Positions 32,501 through 38,076 of a stretch of DNA of 64,000 nucleotides are shown one piece after another. Origin of the DNA: Pyrobaculum neutrophilum V24Sta (GTDB lineage: Archaea; Thermoproteota; Thermoprotei; Thermoproteales; Thermoproteaceae). Both the position numbers and the translations under genes were made by a program. The notes below the pieces were generated by a model. It did no database searches and was not told where the DNA came from. It saw only the letters and a list, made by a program, of their open reading frames with translations. Positions within the stretch are counted from its first letter, which is position 1. Each line of letters starts with the position of its first letter. Where the stretch lies: the NCBI RefSeq assembly GCF_000019805.1, contig NC_010525.1, forward strand, positions 372,001-436,000, given 5' to 3'.

Positions 32501-33043
32501 GTGTCCGAGGTAGACCTAGTACTGCTTGCGGTACTCCTCTTCGCAGGGTGGTACCTCGGCGCGTCGCTGGCGGCTAGGTGGATAAACAGGAGGGCGGTAT
32601 CCCGATGCGGCTGCGAGGCGGCTAGGTGGCTAGGCGGCGCCTCCTCCCTCTACGTCGACTTGAGGTGCGGGGGGAGGCGGGTGGAGGTGTTCATCAACAG
32701 ACTACCCTGGGACAACCCCCTCAACCTGGCCGCATCACTCGTCGCACGCAGGAGAGGCTACACGGCGGTTAGGCTTAAGGCGGACGCAGACCTCGGGGTC
32801 TTCGACGCGTCTAGGGTGGGGTCGGGGCGGCGGATAGGCGCCTTCTACGTCGTAAACACGTCGGGCCCCCGGTGGGCGGTGGAGGCGGCGGCTAAGGCGG
32901 GGGAGGAGGCGGGCGCCTGGAGGGTGACCGCCTCCGGCGGCGTCCTACAGCTACTGTTCCCCCACACTGACTGCGGAAGGGCTGTCCAGTCGGCGTTGAC
33001 CTTCCTTGAAAAGCTACCGCGGGGCCCGCCCGCGGGCGGCTGA
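32501..33043 (+). CDS. Hypothetical membrane-anchored protein
   Basis: Unrecognised 180-aa protein with GTG start. One hydrophobic N-terminal helix (about 5-27) followed by R-W-I-N-R-R, predicting an N-terminal anchor with a cytoplasmic domain. The rest is mixed alpha/beta with C-G-C near 37 and a P-W-D-N-P segment near 68. It follows the MBL-fold gene at short distance. No family recognised. Confidence 0.55.
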   Translation: MSEVDLVLLAVLLFAGWYLGASLAARWINRRAVSRCGCEAARWLGGASSLYVDLRCGGRRVEVFINRLPWDNPLNLAASLVARRRGYTAVRLKADADLGVFDASRVGSGRRIGAFYVVNTSGPRWAVEAAAKAGEEAGAWRVTASGGVLQLLFPHTDCGRAVQSALTFLEKLPRGPPAGG

Positions 33044-33067
33044 ACTTCGGCGTCTGTCGAAACAACA

Positions 33068-33075
33068 CTTTATTA
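33068..33075 (+). promoter_or_regulatory. TATA box of cstA
   Basis: CTTTATTA centred 26 nt before ATG 33096, which discards an upstream in-frame start at 33006 inside the previous gene. Confidence 0.5.
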
Positions 33076-33095
33076 GTCCATATTGCTGGGGGGAT

Positions 33096-34862
33096 ATGTT
33101 TAACACCCCCGCACCATACATACTCCTGGGCCTCGTGCTCTATTTTTTGACATACCGCTTCTACGCCAGGTGGGTAGATAAGAAGATTTGGGAGACCGAC
33201 CCCAACAGACCCACCCCGGCGAGGCTCTACTTCGACGGCGTTGAGTTCTTCCCCGTCTCTAAATACGTCCTCTTCGGCTACCAGTTCAAGTCCGTAGCCG
33301 CGCTCGGCCCCATAGTTGGACCTGTCGTAGCTACTCTGTTTTTTGGCTGGGCGCCGGCGCTCTTGTGGGTTATATTTGGTAATATGTTCATCGGCTGGGT
33401 TCAGGACTACTCAGCAATGATGATGTCGATTAGAAGCGAGGGGAGGTCAATGGGCCCCATCACCTACAAGCTACTGGGAGATAAGGCGAGAAAGATCCTA
33501 CTCATCTATATAATATTCTACCTCATTATCATTACTGCCGTATTTGAGTGGACGATCGTAGACGTGTTCAACCGTGTGCCGGGCACTTTTACAGCGGTAT
33601 TGTTTGTACTAGCAGGTGGTGTGGTTTTCGGATTGTTGATTTTTAGGATGAGACTCGATGTTTTATTGGCTACGTTGGTTGCTTTAGCTATTGTCCTAGT
33701 TGGATATTTCACGGTGGTGCTTTTGCCTTATGCTAGACAGCCTGGGACTAACTTCCTTGATAGCTCTGAGTTTTTTGTTTCACATAATTTCGACAAGAGG
33801 TTAACCTATCCAGGCACTTTTACAGTTCTCTTTTGGCTAATAGTTGTATCAATCCTCTATTATATATCATCTATTACCCCAATGCCACGGTTTTTACTTC
33901 CGACAGTCTATGTTGGGTATTTGCCTTCAATAATCGCACTTGTATTAGTTCTAATAGCGGCGGTATTTACTCCTATAAGTGGATTAGCTATTCAACAACC
34001 TGCGATGAAGGAGTTCTACGTCGATCCTCTGAAGGATCCCCGCGGCGGTCCGCTTTGGCCTATTCTCTTTGTGACAATAGCCTGCGGCGCTATATCGGGC
34101 TGGCATAGTCTCGTCTCCTCCGGCTTAACCTCTAAGCAACTGGAGTATGAGACAGATGCCTTACCGGTGGGGGGAGGCGCCATGATGACTGAGGGAGCGG
34201 TAGCGCTTTCTTCCATAGCATCTGTTATGGTGTTGGAGCGTGTAACTGGGACAGCGGCAGACTATGTGCAAGGCGCGACTTTGCTCACAACCTCTCTGTA
34301 CAGGATTCCAGCAGTTTATATGAGTATCCTGTATGGGATTTTCGTCGCCGTTATGGGGCTTATTACATCTATGCTATTTGTGAGGGTATTCAGACTTGTT
34401 ATGGCTGAGCTGTTTGAAGATACACCGCTTGGCAACAAACATATTTCTACATTACTAATAATCATACTATCTGGGTTTTTGGCGTTTGTAGGTAGCTGGA
34501 CTAATCTGTGGGTGTTCTTTGGAGGCACAAACCAACTGTTGGCTGCTCTTGCGCTACTTCTAGTCGCTATTTTCCTGGCAAGTATAAAGAAGCCAAATGC
34601 GTACGTCTTCATCCCGGGAATTTTCATGACGGTAACTACGCTTGCTGCATTAGCGTGGGAGACCTATGTCTACGGTCTCTACGGAGTTTTAAACACGCCA
34701 ATGCCAGTGCAGAAGTCCGTAGCTGTACTTTACGGCAATACGCTAGTTCAAGTCGCAAATATTCTGTCAGCGGCCTTCGGTGCCTTATTGCTTGTACTTG
34801 GAGTGCTGATGAGCTATTATCTACTAGCCGGCTGGGCCAAGTATCGGAGGGGTCAAAAATAA
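33096..34862 (+). CDS. cstA: CstA-family transporter
   Basis: Carbon starvation protein A family, 588 aa, about 16 hydrophobic segments spread over the whole length. Typical elements are F-G-Y-Q-F-K-S-V-A-A-L-G-P-I-V-G-P near 60, I-S-G-W-H-S-L-V-S-S-G-L near 345 and G-G-T-N-Q-L-L-A near 470. In bacteria CstA/BtsT members import peptides or pyruvate, so organic-acid or peptide uptake is likely. The first 400 bp have local GC-rich codon use, while the rest is much more AT-rich (many TTA, ATT, TTT codons), a mosaic that suggests recombination with a foreign allele. An ArsA-like operon begins 22 bp downstream. Confidence 0.88.
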   Translation: MFNTPAPYILLGLVLYFLTYRFYARWVDKKIWETDPNRPTPARLYFDGVEFFPVSKYVLFGYQFKSVAALGPIVGPVVATLFFGWAPALLWVIFGNMFIGWVQDYSAMMMSIRSEGRSMGPITYKLLGDKARKILLIYIIFYLIIITAVFEWTIVDVFNRVPGTFTAVLFVLAGGVVFGLLIFRMRLDVLLATLVALAIVLVGYFTVVLLPYARQPGTNFLDSSEFFVSHNFDKRLTYPGTFTVLFWLIVVSILYYISSITPMPRFLLPTVYVGYLPSIIALVLVLIAAVFTPISGLAIQQPAMKEFYVDPLKDPRGGPLWPILFVTIACGAISGWHSLVSSGLTSKQLEYETDALPVGGGAMMTEGAVALSSIASVMVLERVTGTAADYVQGATLLTTSLYRIPAVYMSILYGIFVAVMGLITSMLFVRVFRLVMAELFEDTPLGNKHISTLLIIILSGFLAFVGSWTNLWVFFGGTNQLLAALALLLVAIFLASIKKPNAYVFIPGIFMTVTTLAALAWETYVYGLYGVLNTPMPVQKSVAVLYGNTLVQVANILSAAFGALLLVLGVLMSYYLLAGWAKYRRGQK

Positions 34863-34884
34863 ATATCGGTATCGTTTTTCTGCC

Positions 34885-35133
34885 ATGGGTTTTCTAGACA
34901 GGATTAGGGAGGTGGTGGAGGGGCTCACCGTCCATGGCCAATCCACCAGCATTTTGAAGATCAAGGCGCAGATCGACAACTTGTTTATGATTATTACGCT
35001 GGGGGACATGTTGGGTATTCCGATCCTCCCGCCTTACTACTCCCTTAGGCTTGTGCCGTATGTCTTCCCCAATATACAGAACTGGAAGAGGTATATGCTT
35101 AGGGAGAGGGACTTCACGGATCTGGTGTCATGA
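34885..35133 (+). CDS. Small protein paired with ArsA-like ATPase (paralogue 1)
   Basis: Protein of 82 aa with a single hydrophobic stretch around 32-48 and the motif L-G-D-M-L-G-I-P followed by Y-Y-S-L-R-L-V-P-Y-V-F-P. The same motif recurs in the last gene of the operon, so the two are paralogues bracketing the two ATPases. The stop overlaps the start of the first ATPase (ATGA). It could be a membrane-associated partner or a client-binding subunit. A TATA-like AATAAATAT lies over the cstA stop codon at the right distance. No known family recognised. Confidence 0.7.
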   Translation: MGFLDRIREVVEGLTVHGQSTSILKIKAQIDNLFMIITLGDMLGIPILPPYYSLRLVPYVFPNIQNWKRYMLRERDFTDLVS

Positions 35134-36134
35134 TCGGCCTCGGCGGTCTCCTTGAGAGGAACCCCCGCCTCAAGGTCTTTATCTACGCGGGGAAGGGGGG
35201 GCTTGGGAAGACTACGCTTAGCGCGGCGACGTCGGTTAAGCTGTCTAGCCTTGGGAAGAAGACGCTTGTGTTTAGCACGGATCCTCAGGCGTCGCTGAGC
35301 GACGTGTTTGAGCAGAACGTGTTTGGGAGGGGGGAGGTTAAGCTGGCGGAGAACCTCTACGTGATGGAGATCGACGCCGACAAGAAGATTAACGAGTACG
35401 TGGCCTCCATCAAGAAGAAGATCGTCGATATGTACCGCCTTGATAAGCTTCCTCCAGACATCGAGGAGTATATCGACAGCGCGGCGGCTGAGCCGGCGAT
35501 GTACGAAAGCGCTGTTTACGACGCCATGGTGGACGTGGTGTCTGAGGGGAGGTACGACTACTACGTCTTCGATATGCCTCCCTTTGGCCACGGGATTAGG
35601 ATGATCGCCATCGCTGACGTCATCAGCAAGTGGGTGGAGAAGATCACCGAGCTTAGGAGGCAGGCCTACGAGTACGGCCGTGTGGCGGCTTCGCTTAAGA
35701 AGCAGAAGTTGACCTACGAGGACGAGATCTTGAGGGAGCTGGAGTACATCAGGGGGCGTATCCTCAAGTTCCGCGACATAGTTATGAACTCCGAGACGAC
35801 GGCTTTTATGACGGTCATGACGCCGGAGAGGATGACCATCCTCGACACTGAGAAGGCGCTGGAGATGTTCGAGTCGCTGGGTCTGAGGCTGACGGGGATA
35901 GTGGTTAACCAGGTGTATCCGCCTGAGCTGGCTAAGAACCCCGACGCCCCGGCCTACATTAGGCGTAAGGTGGAGGAGCAGCGGAAGTACATGGCCGAGA
36001 TCGCCGACAAGTTCGGGAAGTACATCATCGCGGTGGTGCCCATGTTGAACAGGGAGCCGAAGGGCCTCGACACGCTTAAGGCCGTGGCGGAGGAGCTCTG
36101 GAGGCCGAGCAGGAGGCTGGAGGAGTACATATGA
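35130..36134 (+). CDS. ArsA/Get3-like ATPase (paralogue 1)
   Basis: P-loop ATPase of 334 aa. Deviant Walker A G-K-G-G-L-G-K-T at about 22-29 with the signature Lys. Switch I is near D-P-Q-A-S-L-S-D-V (51-60), and switch II reads D-M-P-P-F-G-H-G where ArsA/Get3 has D-T-A-P-T-G-H. A C-terminal V-V-N-Q-V-Y-P-P resembles the A-loop of Get3. The cysteine pair used by eukaryotic Get3 for zinc dimerisation is absent. Overlaps both flanking genes by 4 bp. A role in membrane-protein targeting or metal handling is possible; without arsenic genes nearby I do not call it an arsenite pump. Confidence 0.8.
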   Translation: MIGLGGLLERNPRLKVFIYAGKGGLGKTTLSAATSVKLSSLGKKTLVFSTDPQASLSDVFEQNVFGRGEVKLAENLYVMEIDADKKINEYVASIKKKIVDMYRLDKLPPDIEEYIDSAAAEPAMYESAVYDAMVDVVSEGRYDYYVFDMPPFGHGIRMIAIADVISKWVEKITELRRQAYEYGRVAASLKKQKLTYEDEILRELEYIRGRILKFRDIVMNSETTAFMTVMTPERMTILDTEKALEMFESLGLRLTGIVVNQVYPPELAKNPDAPAYIRRKVEEQRKYMAEIADKFGKYIIAVVPMLNREPKGLDTLKAVAEELWRPSRRLEEYI

Positions 36135-37111
36135 GGCAGCTCCTAGACCAGAGGGTTAAGTACATCTTCTTTGGGGGGAAGGGGGGCGTGGGCAAGACCG
36201 TGGTGGCGGCGGCGACGGCGCTCTACCTGGCAGAGTCTGCGGGGGAGAGGACCCTCCTCGCCTCCTTCAACCCCGTGCACTCCCTATCCTCGGTCTTCGG
36301 CCAGGACCTCTCGGGGGGCGTAGTTAAGGAGGTTCGGGGGGTGAGGAACCTGTGGGCTGTGGAGGTGCAGTACGACGACATCGTGGAGAAGTACAAGGCG
36401 AGGATCTCGAACCTGCTTAGGGAGATGCTTAAGATGGCGGAGCTTTCTGTGGACATCAAACCGCTTATAGACATAGCCACCACCAACCCGGCCTTCCACG
36501 AGGCGGCCTCCTTCGACAAGATGATGGACGTGGTTCTCAAGGAGGGGTCGAAGTTCGACCGGGTTATCTTCGACATGGCGGCTGTGGCCAACGCGGTGCG
36601 GCTGATCGGCCTCTCCAAGCTCTACGGCGCCTGGCTTCAGAGGACTATAAAGATGAGGATGGAGACCCTCTCCCTGAAGGAGCAGCTGTCTTTCCGCAAG
36701 GAGAAGGTTAGGGAGGAGATAGAGAGGGACCCCGTGTTGGCCGAGCTGAAGGACTTATACAGCCGCTATATGGAGGTAAGGAAGGTGCTGACCGACCCGG
36801 CCCAGACGCGGTTTGTCTTCGTCACGATACCCACGGTGCTCTCCATCTCGGTGGTGCAGAGGTTTATAGAGATGGTGAAGGCGTACGAGATACCCTTCGG
36901 CGGGGTGGTTGTGAACATGGTGATTCCGGGGGAGGAGGCGGCTAGGGACGCCACGGGCTTCCTCAGGAGCAAGTACGAGGAGCAGCAGAGGAACCTCGAG
37001 GTGATTAGGCAGTCCTTCTCGCCGCATATCCTCGCCTCGGTTAGGCTTTTCCCCGAGGACATAGTAGGCCTTGAAAGGCTGAGGCAGTTCGTGGCCGAGC
37101 TCGTTAGATGA
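36131..37111 (+). CDS. ArsA/Get3-like ATPase (paralogue 2)
   Basis: Second ATPase, 326 aa. Walker A G-K-G-G-V-G-K-T at about 17-24, switch I N-P-V-H-S-L-S-S-V where paralogue 1 has D-P-Q-A-S-L, so the usual Asp is Asn. Switch II is D-M-A-A-V-A-N-A, lacking the G-H of the family. The C-terminal part keeps V-V-N-M-V-I-P. The divergence suggests one catalytic and one regulatory subunit in a heterodimer with paralogue 1. Start and stop overlap the neighbours by 4 bp, so all four genes are translated as one unit. Confidence 0.8.
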   Translation: MRQLLDQRVKYIFFGGKGGVGKTVVAAATALYLAESAGERTLLASFNPVHSLSSVFGQDLSGGVVKEVRGVRNLWAVEVQYDDIVEKYKARISNLLREMLKMAELSVDIKPLIDIATTNPAFHEAASFDKMMDVVLKEGSKFDRVIFDMAAVANAVRLIGLSKLYGAWLQRTIKMRMETLSLKEQLSFRKEKVREEIERDPVLAELKDLYSRYMEVRKVLTDPAQTRFVFVTIPTVLSISVVQRFIEMVKAYEIPFGGVVVNMVIPGEEAARDATGFLRSKYEEQQRNLEVIRQSFSPHILASVRLFPEDIVGLERLRQFVAELVR

Positions 37112-37362
37112 AGGCGCTTAGGGACTTCCTATTTGGGCTCCTCTTCCTCGACCTCTACCACGAGACTGCTAAGTTGAACAGGCAGCTTAACCTCCTCATG
37201 TCTATCCTCCTCTTCGGCGACTTCCTGGGGGTCCCCCTCCTCACGAGCTACTACTCCCTGCGTCTTCTGCCCTACGCCTACCCCGCCCTTTCCGAGTTTA
37301 GGAAGGAGGCTGTTAAGGAGCACGAGATCTTTGACCTGCTTTCGGAGTACCATGTCCACTGA
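37108..37362 (+). CDS. Small protein paired with ArsA-like ATPase (paralogue 2)
   Basis: Protein of 84 aa homologous to the first gene of the operon: L-F-G-D-F-L-G-V-P then Y-Y-S-L-R-L-L-P-Y-A-Y-P. Hydrophobic stretch around 28-45. The conserved G-D-x-L-G-x-P and Y-Y-S-L-R-L elements are the main signature of this unnamed pair. Overlaps the end of the second ATPase (ATGA) and the start of the next gene by 11 bp. Confidence 0.7.
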   Translation: MKALRDFLFGLLFLDLYHETAKLNRQLNLLMSILLFGDFLGVPLLTSYYSLRLLPYAYPALSEFRKEAVKEHEIFDLLSEYHVH

Positions 37363-37783
37363 GTTCAGCTGGCACGCCATTGCGGTGGGGAACAGGGTGC
37401 TGGGGCTCTACAACTTCCTGGTGCTGAGCGCCCCCCCGACCTGGCGTATCGTGGTTATGCCCATGGCCTCCGACGTGTTTAAACACAGGGAGGTAGACGG
37501 AGTTAAGTGGGTGAGAGATGGGGAGGTTATGCACTTCGTGAGAGACGGGGGGAGGGCCTACGTCCTCAAGATCAAGGCTAGGCCGGGGCGGAGGGTGGGG
37601 AAGGGCGAGCCCATCACGGTGGGGGGCCACCAGGGCGTCTACAGGACGTCCAAGGGGAGGGGAGGGCTGAGGCTGGCTGTGGAGTTCTACTGCGACGTAA
37701 CAGACCGAACCCTCACCGTGGAGCTGGAGGGCCTCGACGGCCTTGACGTCCTCAACTACATAGGGGGGAGCCGGTGCCACTGA
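37352..37783 (+). CDS. Hypothetical protein after ArsA-like operon
   Basis: Unrecognised 143-aa protein, beta-rich, starting at an ATG inside the last codons of the small paralogue. Contains F-S-W-H-A-I-A-V-G near the start and F-Y-C-D-V-T-D-R-T near 112. No membrane segment. The overlap puts it in the ArsA-like transcription unit; it may be a further subunit or client. Confidence 0.55.
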   Translation: MSTEFSWHAIAVGNRVLGLYNFLVLSAPPTWRIVVMPMASDVFKHREVDGVKWVRDGEVMHFVRDGGRAYVLKIKARPGRRVGKGEPITVGGHQGVYRTSKGRGGLRLAVEFYCDVTDRTLTVELEGLDGLDVLNYIGGSRCH

Positions 37784-38076
37784 AGGTCGTCGTCGTTGCG
37801 GTCTTCGGGGGTAGGGCCGGCCCGTGCCGTAGTTGCGTATACGCCGCGGGGGCCGCTGGGGTGGACGCCACCGTGGAGATGCCCGGCGACGACCTCAGCT
37901 GGCTCCCCCGCCTCCTGAAGAGGCTGGGCGCCCCGGCGGAGGTCCACCTGGTCCACGCCCTATCGCTACGGGGGCTCTACTTCATGGTTAGGTACCGGAC
38001 TGGGAAACTACCTCTCGTCCTTGTAGACGGGAGGAGGATAGAGCCGGGGGAGCTGAGGCGGCTCCTCCAGGCGTAA
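37774..38076 (+). CDS. Thioredoxin-like small protein
   Basis: Protein of 100 aa from a GTG overlapping the previous gene by 10 bp. The order strand, C-R-S-C redox motif (18-21), helix, then K-L-P-L-V-L-V-D-G with a likely cis-proline and E-L-R-R-L-L tail matches a glutaredoxin/thioredoxin fold. C-x-x-C suggests disulfide exchange or metal transfer. Substrate unknown; the operon position hints at service to the ArsA-like complex. Confidence 0.6.
   Translation: MPLKVVVVAVFGGRAGPCRSCVYAAGAAGVDATVEMPGDDLSWLPRLLKRLGAPAEVHLVHALSLRGLYFMVRYRTGKLPLVLVDGRRIEPGELRRLLQA

Follow-up and report, generated by a model that had tools for sequence, protein, structure and literature searches.

An apparent CstA transporter operon of Pyrobaculum neutrophilum encoding an unequal pair of ArsA/Get3-type ATPases, two CstX proteins and a CstY homologue

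Described CstA systems and organization of the locus

CstA relatives import pyruvate or peptides. Uptake by CstA of E. coli requires a small protein, YbdD (PMC5847655). Operons that join CstA with CstX and an ArsA-type ATPase were described by Castillo and Saier in 2010, with CstY in some archaea, among which Thermococcus kodakarensis is listed with CstA, CstX and CstY, so that the association of CstA, CstX and ArsA is not new (PMC2963123). The same study reported two adjacent ArsA proteins in P. arsenaticum (Par1 and Par2; 334 and 327 aa) together with two CstX proteins (Par11 and Par12). In its proposal CstX links ArsA to CstA and ArsA provides the energy, and co-evolution of these components was argued. 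It also noted that the carrier of the ArsA-ArsB pump is able to work alone (PMC2963123). In our literature search, which covered few subscription journals, neither CstX nor the link between CstA and ArsA was the subject of a later study, and ATP-driven transport by CstA was not reported.

The DNA analysed here (the window) is a stretch of 64,000 nucleotides of the P. neutrophilum V24Sta genome, in which eight genes of the same direction, with short gaps or overlaps between them, occupy positions 32501-38076 (Table 1) and on sequence grounds form one apparent operon, CstA included. A preliminary description of the window had recognized the order S1-A1-A2-S2 with 4-bp overlaps, which is right to the base with ATGA at all three junctions, and had taken these four genes as a free-standing module. 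The latter view is contradicted by the tie of the core to the CstA transporter and by its place in the eight-gene run, as the CstA gene (its start placed by inference at the ATG of MFNTPAPY) ends 22 bp 5' of S1, F5 overlaps the end of S2 and c5 overlaps the end of F5. In agreement with the first reading, the 30-42 kb region of the window showed no arsenic genes. In the complete genome (1.77 Mb, one contig) S1 and S2 are the only S proteins and A1 and A2 the sole strong ArsA matches.

Table 1. Genes of the eight-gene run in P. neutrophilum (positions within the window)
Gene product	Position	Strand	Evidence
CstY homologue (180 aa, GTG start), N-terminal TM helix and soluble domain; divergent	32501..33043	+	hhalign to CstY families
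CstA-type transporter (588 aa, ~13 hydrophobic segments), pair-specific clade	33096..34862	+	PF02554 E 7.5e-103; tree
S1 (CstX-1), putative small adaptor (82 aa)	34885..35133	+	NF041419 E 1.1e-8, under cut-off; S1 family alignment
A1, ArsA/Get3-type ATPase (334 aa), catalytic residues complete	35130..36134	+	PF02374 E 3e-69; motif table; tree
A2, ArsA/Get3-type ATPase (326 aa), switch I Asn, switch II without Gly-His	36131..37111	+	PF02374 E 6e-60; motif table; tree
S2 (CstX-2), putative small adaptor (84 aa)	37108..37362	+	NF041419 E 7.8e-6, under cut-off; homologous to S1
F5 (143 aa), recurrent fifth component, PsbP/Mog1/Tsi3-like all-beta fold	37352..37783	+	alignment; model; fold search
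c5, thioredoxin-like protein (100 aa, GTG start), CxxC	37774..38076	+	match of a relative; recurrent neighbour

Conserved asymmetry of the ATPase pair

A1 and A2 are 31% identical and score 234 and 203 bits against PF02374 (gathering cut-off 24.3). As recognized earlier, the two differ by Asp versus Asn in switch I (STDPQASL in A1, SFNPVHSL in A2) and by the presence or absence of Gly-His in switch II (DMPPFGHG in A1, DMAAVANAV in A2). Our comparison of relatives, which were labelled A1 or A2 by similarity in a way that does not impose a single residue, showed the switch-I Asp and the switch-II Gly-His in all 98 A1 proteins, and the switch-I Asn with Ala-Asn replacing Gly-His in all 94 A2 proteins, while the P-loop (GKGGxGKT) lysines and Thr were intact in 192/192. 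Asn is likewise found in four more A2 proteins, all archaeal, whose switch II (DTAPVAHT) is intermediate. Two-ArsA loci from about ten phyla encoded one Asp and one Asn ATPase in every case (95/95, a count that includes contigs retrieved twice, the distinct loci being somewhat fewer), and single ArsA proteins have Asp at switch I. This conserved one-Asp/one-Asn asymmetry across two-ArsA loci is new.

Phylogenetic analysis, based on a short search with long branches among the outgroup rows, recovered A1 and A2 as two clades, sister to each other (supports 97 and 99), whose branching orders mirror one another, which points to the origin of both lineages in one ancient duplication that would have preceded the inheritance or exchange of the operon among lineages. 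The hydrolysis-dead D57N mutation of yeast Get3, at the same position as the A2 Asn, traps the ATP-bound state (PMC12506534), and A2 is therefore predicted to bind ATP without hydrolysis while A1 hydrolyses. The asymmetric heterodimer put forward in the preliminary description is thus upheld in its asymmetry by the 95 loci and the mirrored clades, and we infer that the two subunits dimerize.

Archaeal Get3-like structures and algal ArsA1 are closest to A1 and A2. Neither window protein contains a cysteine, and CxxC, the zinc motif of the Get3 tail-anchored targeting factor, is absent from both and from 191 of 192 A1/A2 relatives. The Met-rich stretch of an archaeal Get3-like chain (SGFMKMMKKLLPF) is shortened in A1 and A2, with about five-fold fewer Met (client-segment means of 1.0 in A1 and 0.6 in A2 versus 5 in 3ug6, the overall hydrophobic share being similar). 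A third, very divergent ArsA-like protein of 389 aa was observed 5 kb from a paired module in one other locus (L074:16159-17328). The solitary plasmid ArsA proteins of three haloarchaeal loci examined (L108-L110), found without CstA, and an Alicyclobacillus ArsA pair located in an arsenic operon were rejected as representatives of the same system.

CstX, CstA and the accessory proteins

The two small proteins share the motifs noted at first sight (GDMLGIP and YYSLRL in S1, GDFLGVP and YYSLRL in S2), with 33% identity over 78 positions, and the homology of their families is shown by hhalign (probability 99.9, E 2e-32). They had initially been thought to match no known family, which is incorrect; both are CstX (Castillo and Saier 2010, PMC2963123), in that they fit the account of a protein of ~90 aa encoded with CstA and ArsA, a match by description, and both are distant kin of the NCBIfam family cory-CC-star (NF041419). 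Their scores (34.9 bits for S1 and 25.8 bits for S2) lie under the equivalog cut-off of 80 and the terminal CC of cory-CC-star is missing from both, which makes them homologues and not members of that family. The family is hence a known one, with a function that has been proposed yet never settled, and it extends well beyond a single species, as S proteins occur in 48 Thermoproteota genomes. CstX was rejected as a homologue of YbdD (Sel_put, PF04328; hhalign probability 1.6%), although both are small CstA partners, and no Asterix match was found among CstX members. Many S2 proteins end in a His residue. PDB sequence searches with the CstX, CstY and F5 profiles returned nothing significant, and CstA had no PDB relative by sequence.

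The window CstA scores 345.6 bits against PF02554 (cut-off 27). Among 398 Thermoproteota genomes, which share kinship and are not independent trials, CstA was found in 79 (PF02554) and S proteins in 48 (NF041419); all 48 also possess CstA, and no S protein was detected in the 319 genomes that lack it. The remaining 31 CstA-bearing genomes, including those of family f17 with a low-scoring CstA, had no NF041419 match and may hold either diverged CstX or none. The YbdD family gave no match over its cut-off in the 398 genomes.

The S-A-A-S order recurs in other members of the family and further afield, so that it does not reflect chance. In archaeal loci CstA adjoins the S and ArsA genes nearly always, whether or not it shares their strand, and gene orders vary (S-A-A-S, S-S-A-A). 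The broad CstX alignment had no sufficiently conserved stretch, and genomes were scanned with an alignment of S1 only, which biases the resulting 80 loci towards the paired type; CstA was present in 74 of them, A1 in 75 and both ATPases in 70. Most of the incomplete loci end at contig edges, and two (L146, L178) have some flanking room yet no visible CstA. The phyla represented include Thermodesulfobacteriota, Chloroflexota, Bacillota, Actinomycetota, Acidobacteriota, Gemmatimonadota, Spirochaetota, Bacteroidota, Rokubacteria, Thermoproteota and others. In the CstA tree the proteins from paired operons group in a single clade (support 100), and this separate CstA clade is a new observation.

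Some loci depart from the common pattern. Third-position G+C of the window CstA gene is 0.51 in comparison to 0.72-0.87 in its neighbours, while in other Thermoproteaceae loci the CstA value is much nearer that of the neighbouring genes. The protein still groups with those of close relatives, and a recent replacement by a lower-GC copy is possible. Two genomes of the genus Pyrobaculum (L095, L096) are without the paired module and have a single-ArsA CstA operon in its place, with an extra helical protein of 108-120 aa (c41) ahead of the small protein. In one genome (G200, locus L081) S-A-A-S lies ~40 kb from CstA, a rare separation, and a gene matching the CCDC47 model (CstY) adjoins CstA.

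The family of the window CstY (c44) aligned with two other CstY families, c7 (hhalign 96.6%, E 5e-10) and c3 (85.4%, E 6e-6), and the window protein has a KD maximum of 2.17 at residues 6-24. A CstY relative (L125) was modelled with a pLDDT of 94.8, and its best three PDB matches by Foldseek (E 7.5e-7, 2.6e-5 and 5.7e-5; TM 0.50-0.65; next match E 0.08) are chains of ribosome-translocon structures. One of these, 9i78_4, is annotated as CCDC47, and we take the other two, 7tm3_4 and 6w6l_7, to be CCDC47 from our knowledge of those structures and their titles. The Pfam CCDC47 model (PF07946) was matched by 12 of 41 CstY proteins, of which one (L088) passed its cut-off (30.0 versus 27.7 bits), and CstY genes adjoining CstA were among the best matches of a PF07946 genome scan. 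The window CstY, a divergent member, gave no direct CCDC47 match. CstY thus appears CCDC47-like by predicted fold in one relative and by Pfam score in another, a resemblance that is new.

Two additional recurrent genes, also new here, encode the PsbP-like F5 and the thioredoxin-like c5. An alignment of 29 F5 sequences showed H93, C114, C142 and H143 to be invariant, and these residues may constitute a metal or redox site; C142 and H143 lie at or near the extreme C-terminus. The F5 model (pLDDT 94.4) was weakly PsbP/Mog1/Tsi3-like in the fold search (best E 5e-4). c5 carries CxxC at residue 18, and one relative (L142) matches Thioredoxin_3 at E 5e-4, under the cut-off, while the window c5 itself gave no thioredoxin match.

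Proposed function and comparison with known systems

With slightly better than even confidence we propose a multi-subunit CstA transporter in which a Get3/ArsA heterodimer, half-active and anchored through two CstX adaptors, gates or energises transport, a reading favoured by the tie of these genes to CstA, by their co-descent with a distinct CstA clade and by the ArsA-ArsB precedent. CstA would be the membrane carrier. A1 and A2 would pair as an obligate heterodimer of the Get3/ArsA type, with two nucleotide sites; the catalytic Asp and ATP hydrolysis would fall to A1, while A2, locked by its Asn, would bind ATP and have a regulatory or clamping role. Docking of the unequal ATPases on CstA or CstY would be the task of the CstX pair, with S1 presumably serving A1 and S2 serving A2. 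CstY would act as the scaffold at the membrane, through its single TM helix and its CCDC47-like cytosolic domain. A single ATP cycle of the heterodimer would then drive or gate substrate passage, by analogy with the service of ArsA to ArsB. Counted against such a transporter complex are the lack of an ArsA neighbour for E. coli cstA, the resemblance of CstY to an assembly factor and not to a transporter subunit, and the 31 of 79 CstA-bearing Thermoproteota genomes without detectable CstX.

A second reading, possible though short of even in our estimate, draws on the likeness of CstY to CCDC47 and on the kinship of the ATPases with Get3. In it the Get3-like heterodimer, CstX and CstY would stand outside the working transporter as a dedicated machine that inserts, folds or assembles CstA, and would be a prokaryotic counterpart, devoted to one client, of the eukaryotic GET and PAT/multipass-translocon factors. 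This reading agrees with the CCDC47 matches of the CstY relatives and with the closeness of A1 and A2 to Get3-like structures and algal ArsA1, but the genes are hardly ever apart from CstA, which would be odd for a general insertase, and the absence of CxxC and the shortened, Met-poor client stretch would also speak against general tail-anchor targeting. Membrane-protein targeting, one suggestion of the preliminary description, consequently survives as CstA assembly alone, strengthened by CstY, and its suggestion of a cofactor machine draws little support from the thioredoxin-like neighbour and the invariant Cys/His of F5. The fullest version of the assembly reading, a prokaryotic client-specific machine with a half-active Get3-like heterodimer and a true CCDC47 homologue, we consider doubtful. 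The ATPase pair could instead be a switch that senses energy or nucleotide state and toggles a proton-coupled CstA without powering it; YbdD is reportedly all that E. coli CstA requires (PMC5847655) and a half-dead ATPase would suit a timer or switch, as D57N traps ATP (PMC12506534), yet so large and strictly conserved a machinery would be costly for regulation alone, and this outcome seems unlikely. Arsenic or metalloid efflux, to which PF02374 membership and database names such as 'arsenical pump-driving ATPase' might lead, is excluded in practice by the cysteine-free A1 and A2, the near-complete absence of CxxC from their relatives and the lack of ars genes nearby.

In summary, an orphan ATPase pair gains a named partner in CstA, a widespread nutrient transporter that becomes linked to an ATPase and a CCDC47-like protein, and a Get3/ArsA pair with one predicted active and one predicted locked member is strictly conserved across about ten phyla. 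PAT components are said to be lacking in prokaryotes (PMC9630114); were the assembly machine to hold true, it would counter that statement and give the GET-like and PAT-like arms of membrane-protein biogenesis in eukaryotes a common relative among prokaryotes. Two questions thereby become open to test, namely if ATP can drive CstA and if the eukaryotic PAT complex has kin in prokaryotes.

In comparison to the operons of Castillo and Saier (PMC2963123), whose paired cluster had no CstY, the paired operon described here carries F5 and c5 besides a CstY homologue, and where homodimers were suggested there, the pair was asymmetric in every locus tested. In the minimal unit, found on Paracoccus and Pseudochrobactrum plasmids, the homologous cory-CC-star protein adjoins CstA and a single ArsA. 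The E. coli CstA-YbdD system likewise pairs CstA with a required small partner protein, but its cstA has no adjoining ATPase gene. To judge from the modelled relative, CstY shares with CCDC47 of the PAT complex and multipass translocon a fold and the combination of a TM helix with a cytosolic domain. It is shorter, however, as it does not reach the coiled-coil part at the C-terminal end of the profile, and it is bound to a single transporter. A1 and A2 match the archaeal Get3-like proteins 3ug6 and 3zq6 in P-loop, switch regions and overall sequence, and differ from Get3/TRC40 as two separate, unequal subunits with no CxxC and a Met-poor client-binding stretch. Mycobacterial Rv3679/Rv3680 (BagA/BagB; PDB 6bs3) also comprise two separate Get3/ArsA-like proteins in one entry, although their sequence similarity to A1 and A2 is remote (E about 1e-4). 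The ArsA-ArsB pump has in common a peripheral ArsA-type ATPase of two homologous halves serving a carrier, whereas in the paired operons these halves are separate genes whose products have no cysteines, and the carrier is CstA instead of ArsB.
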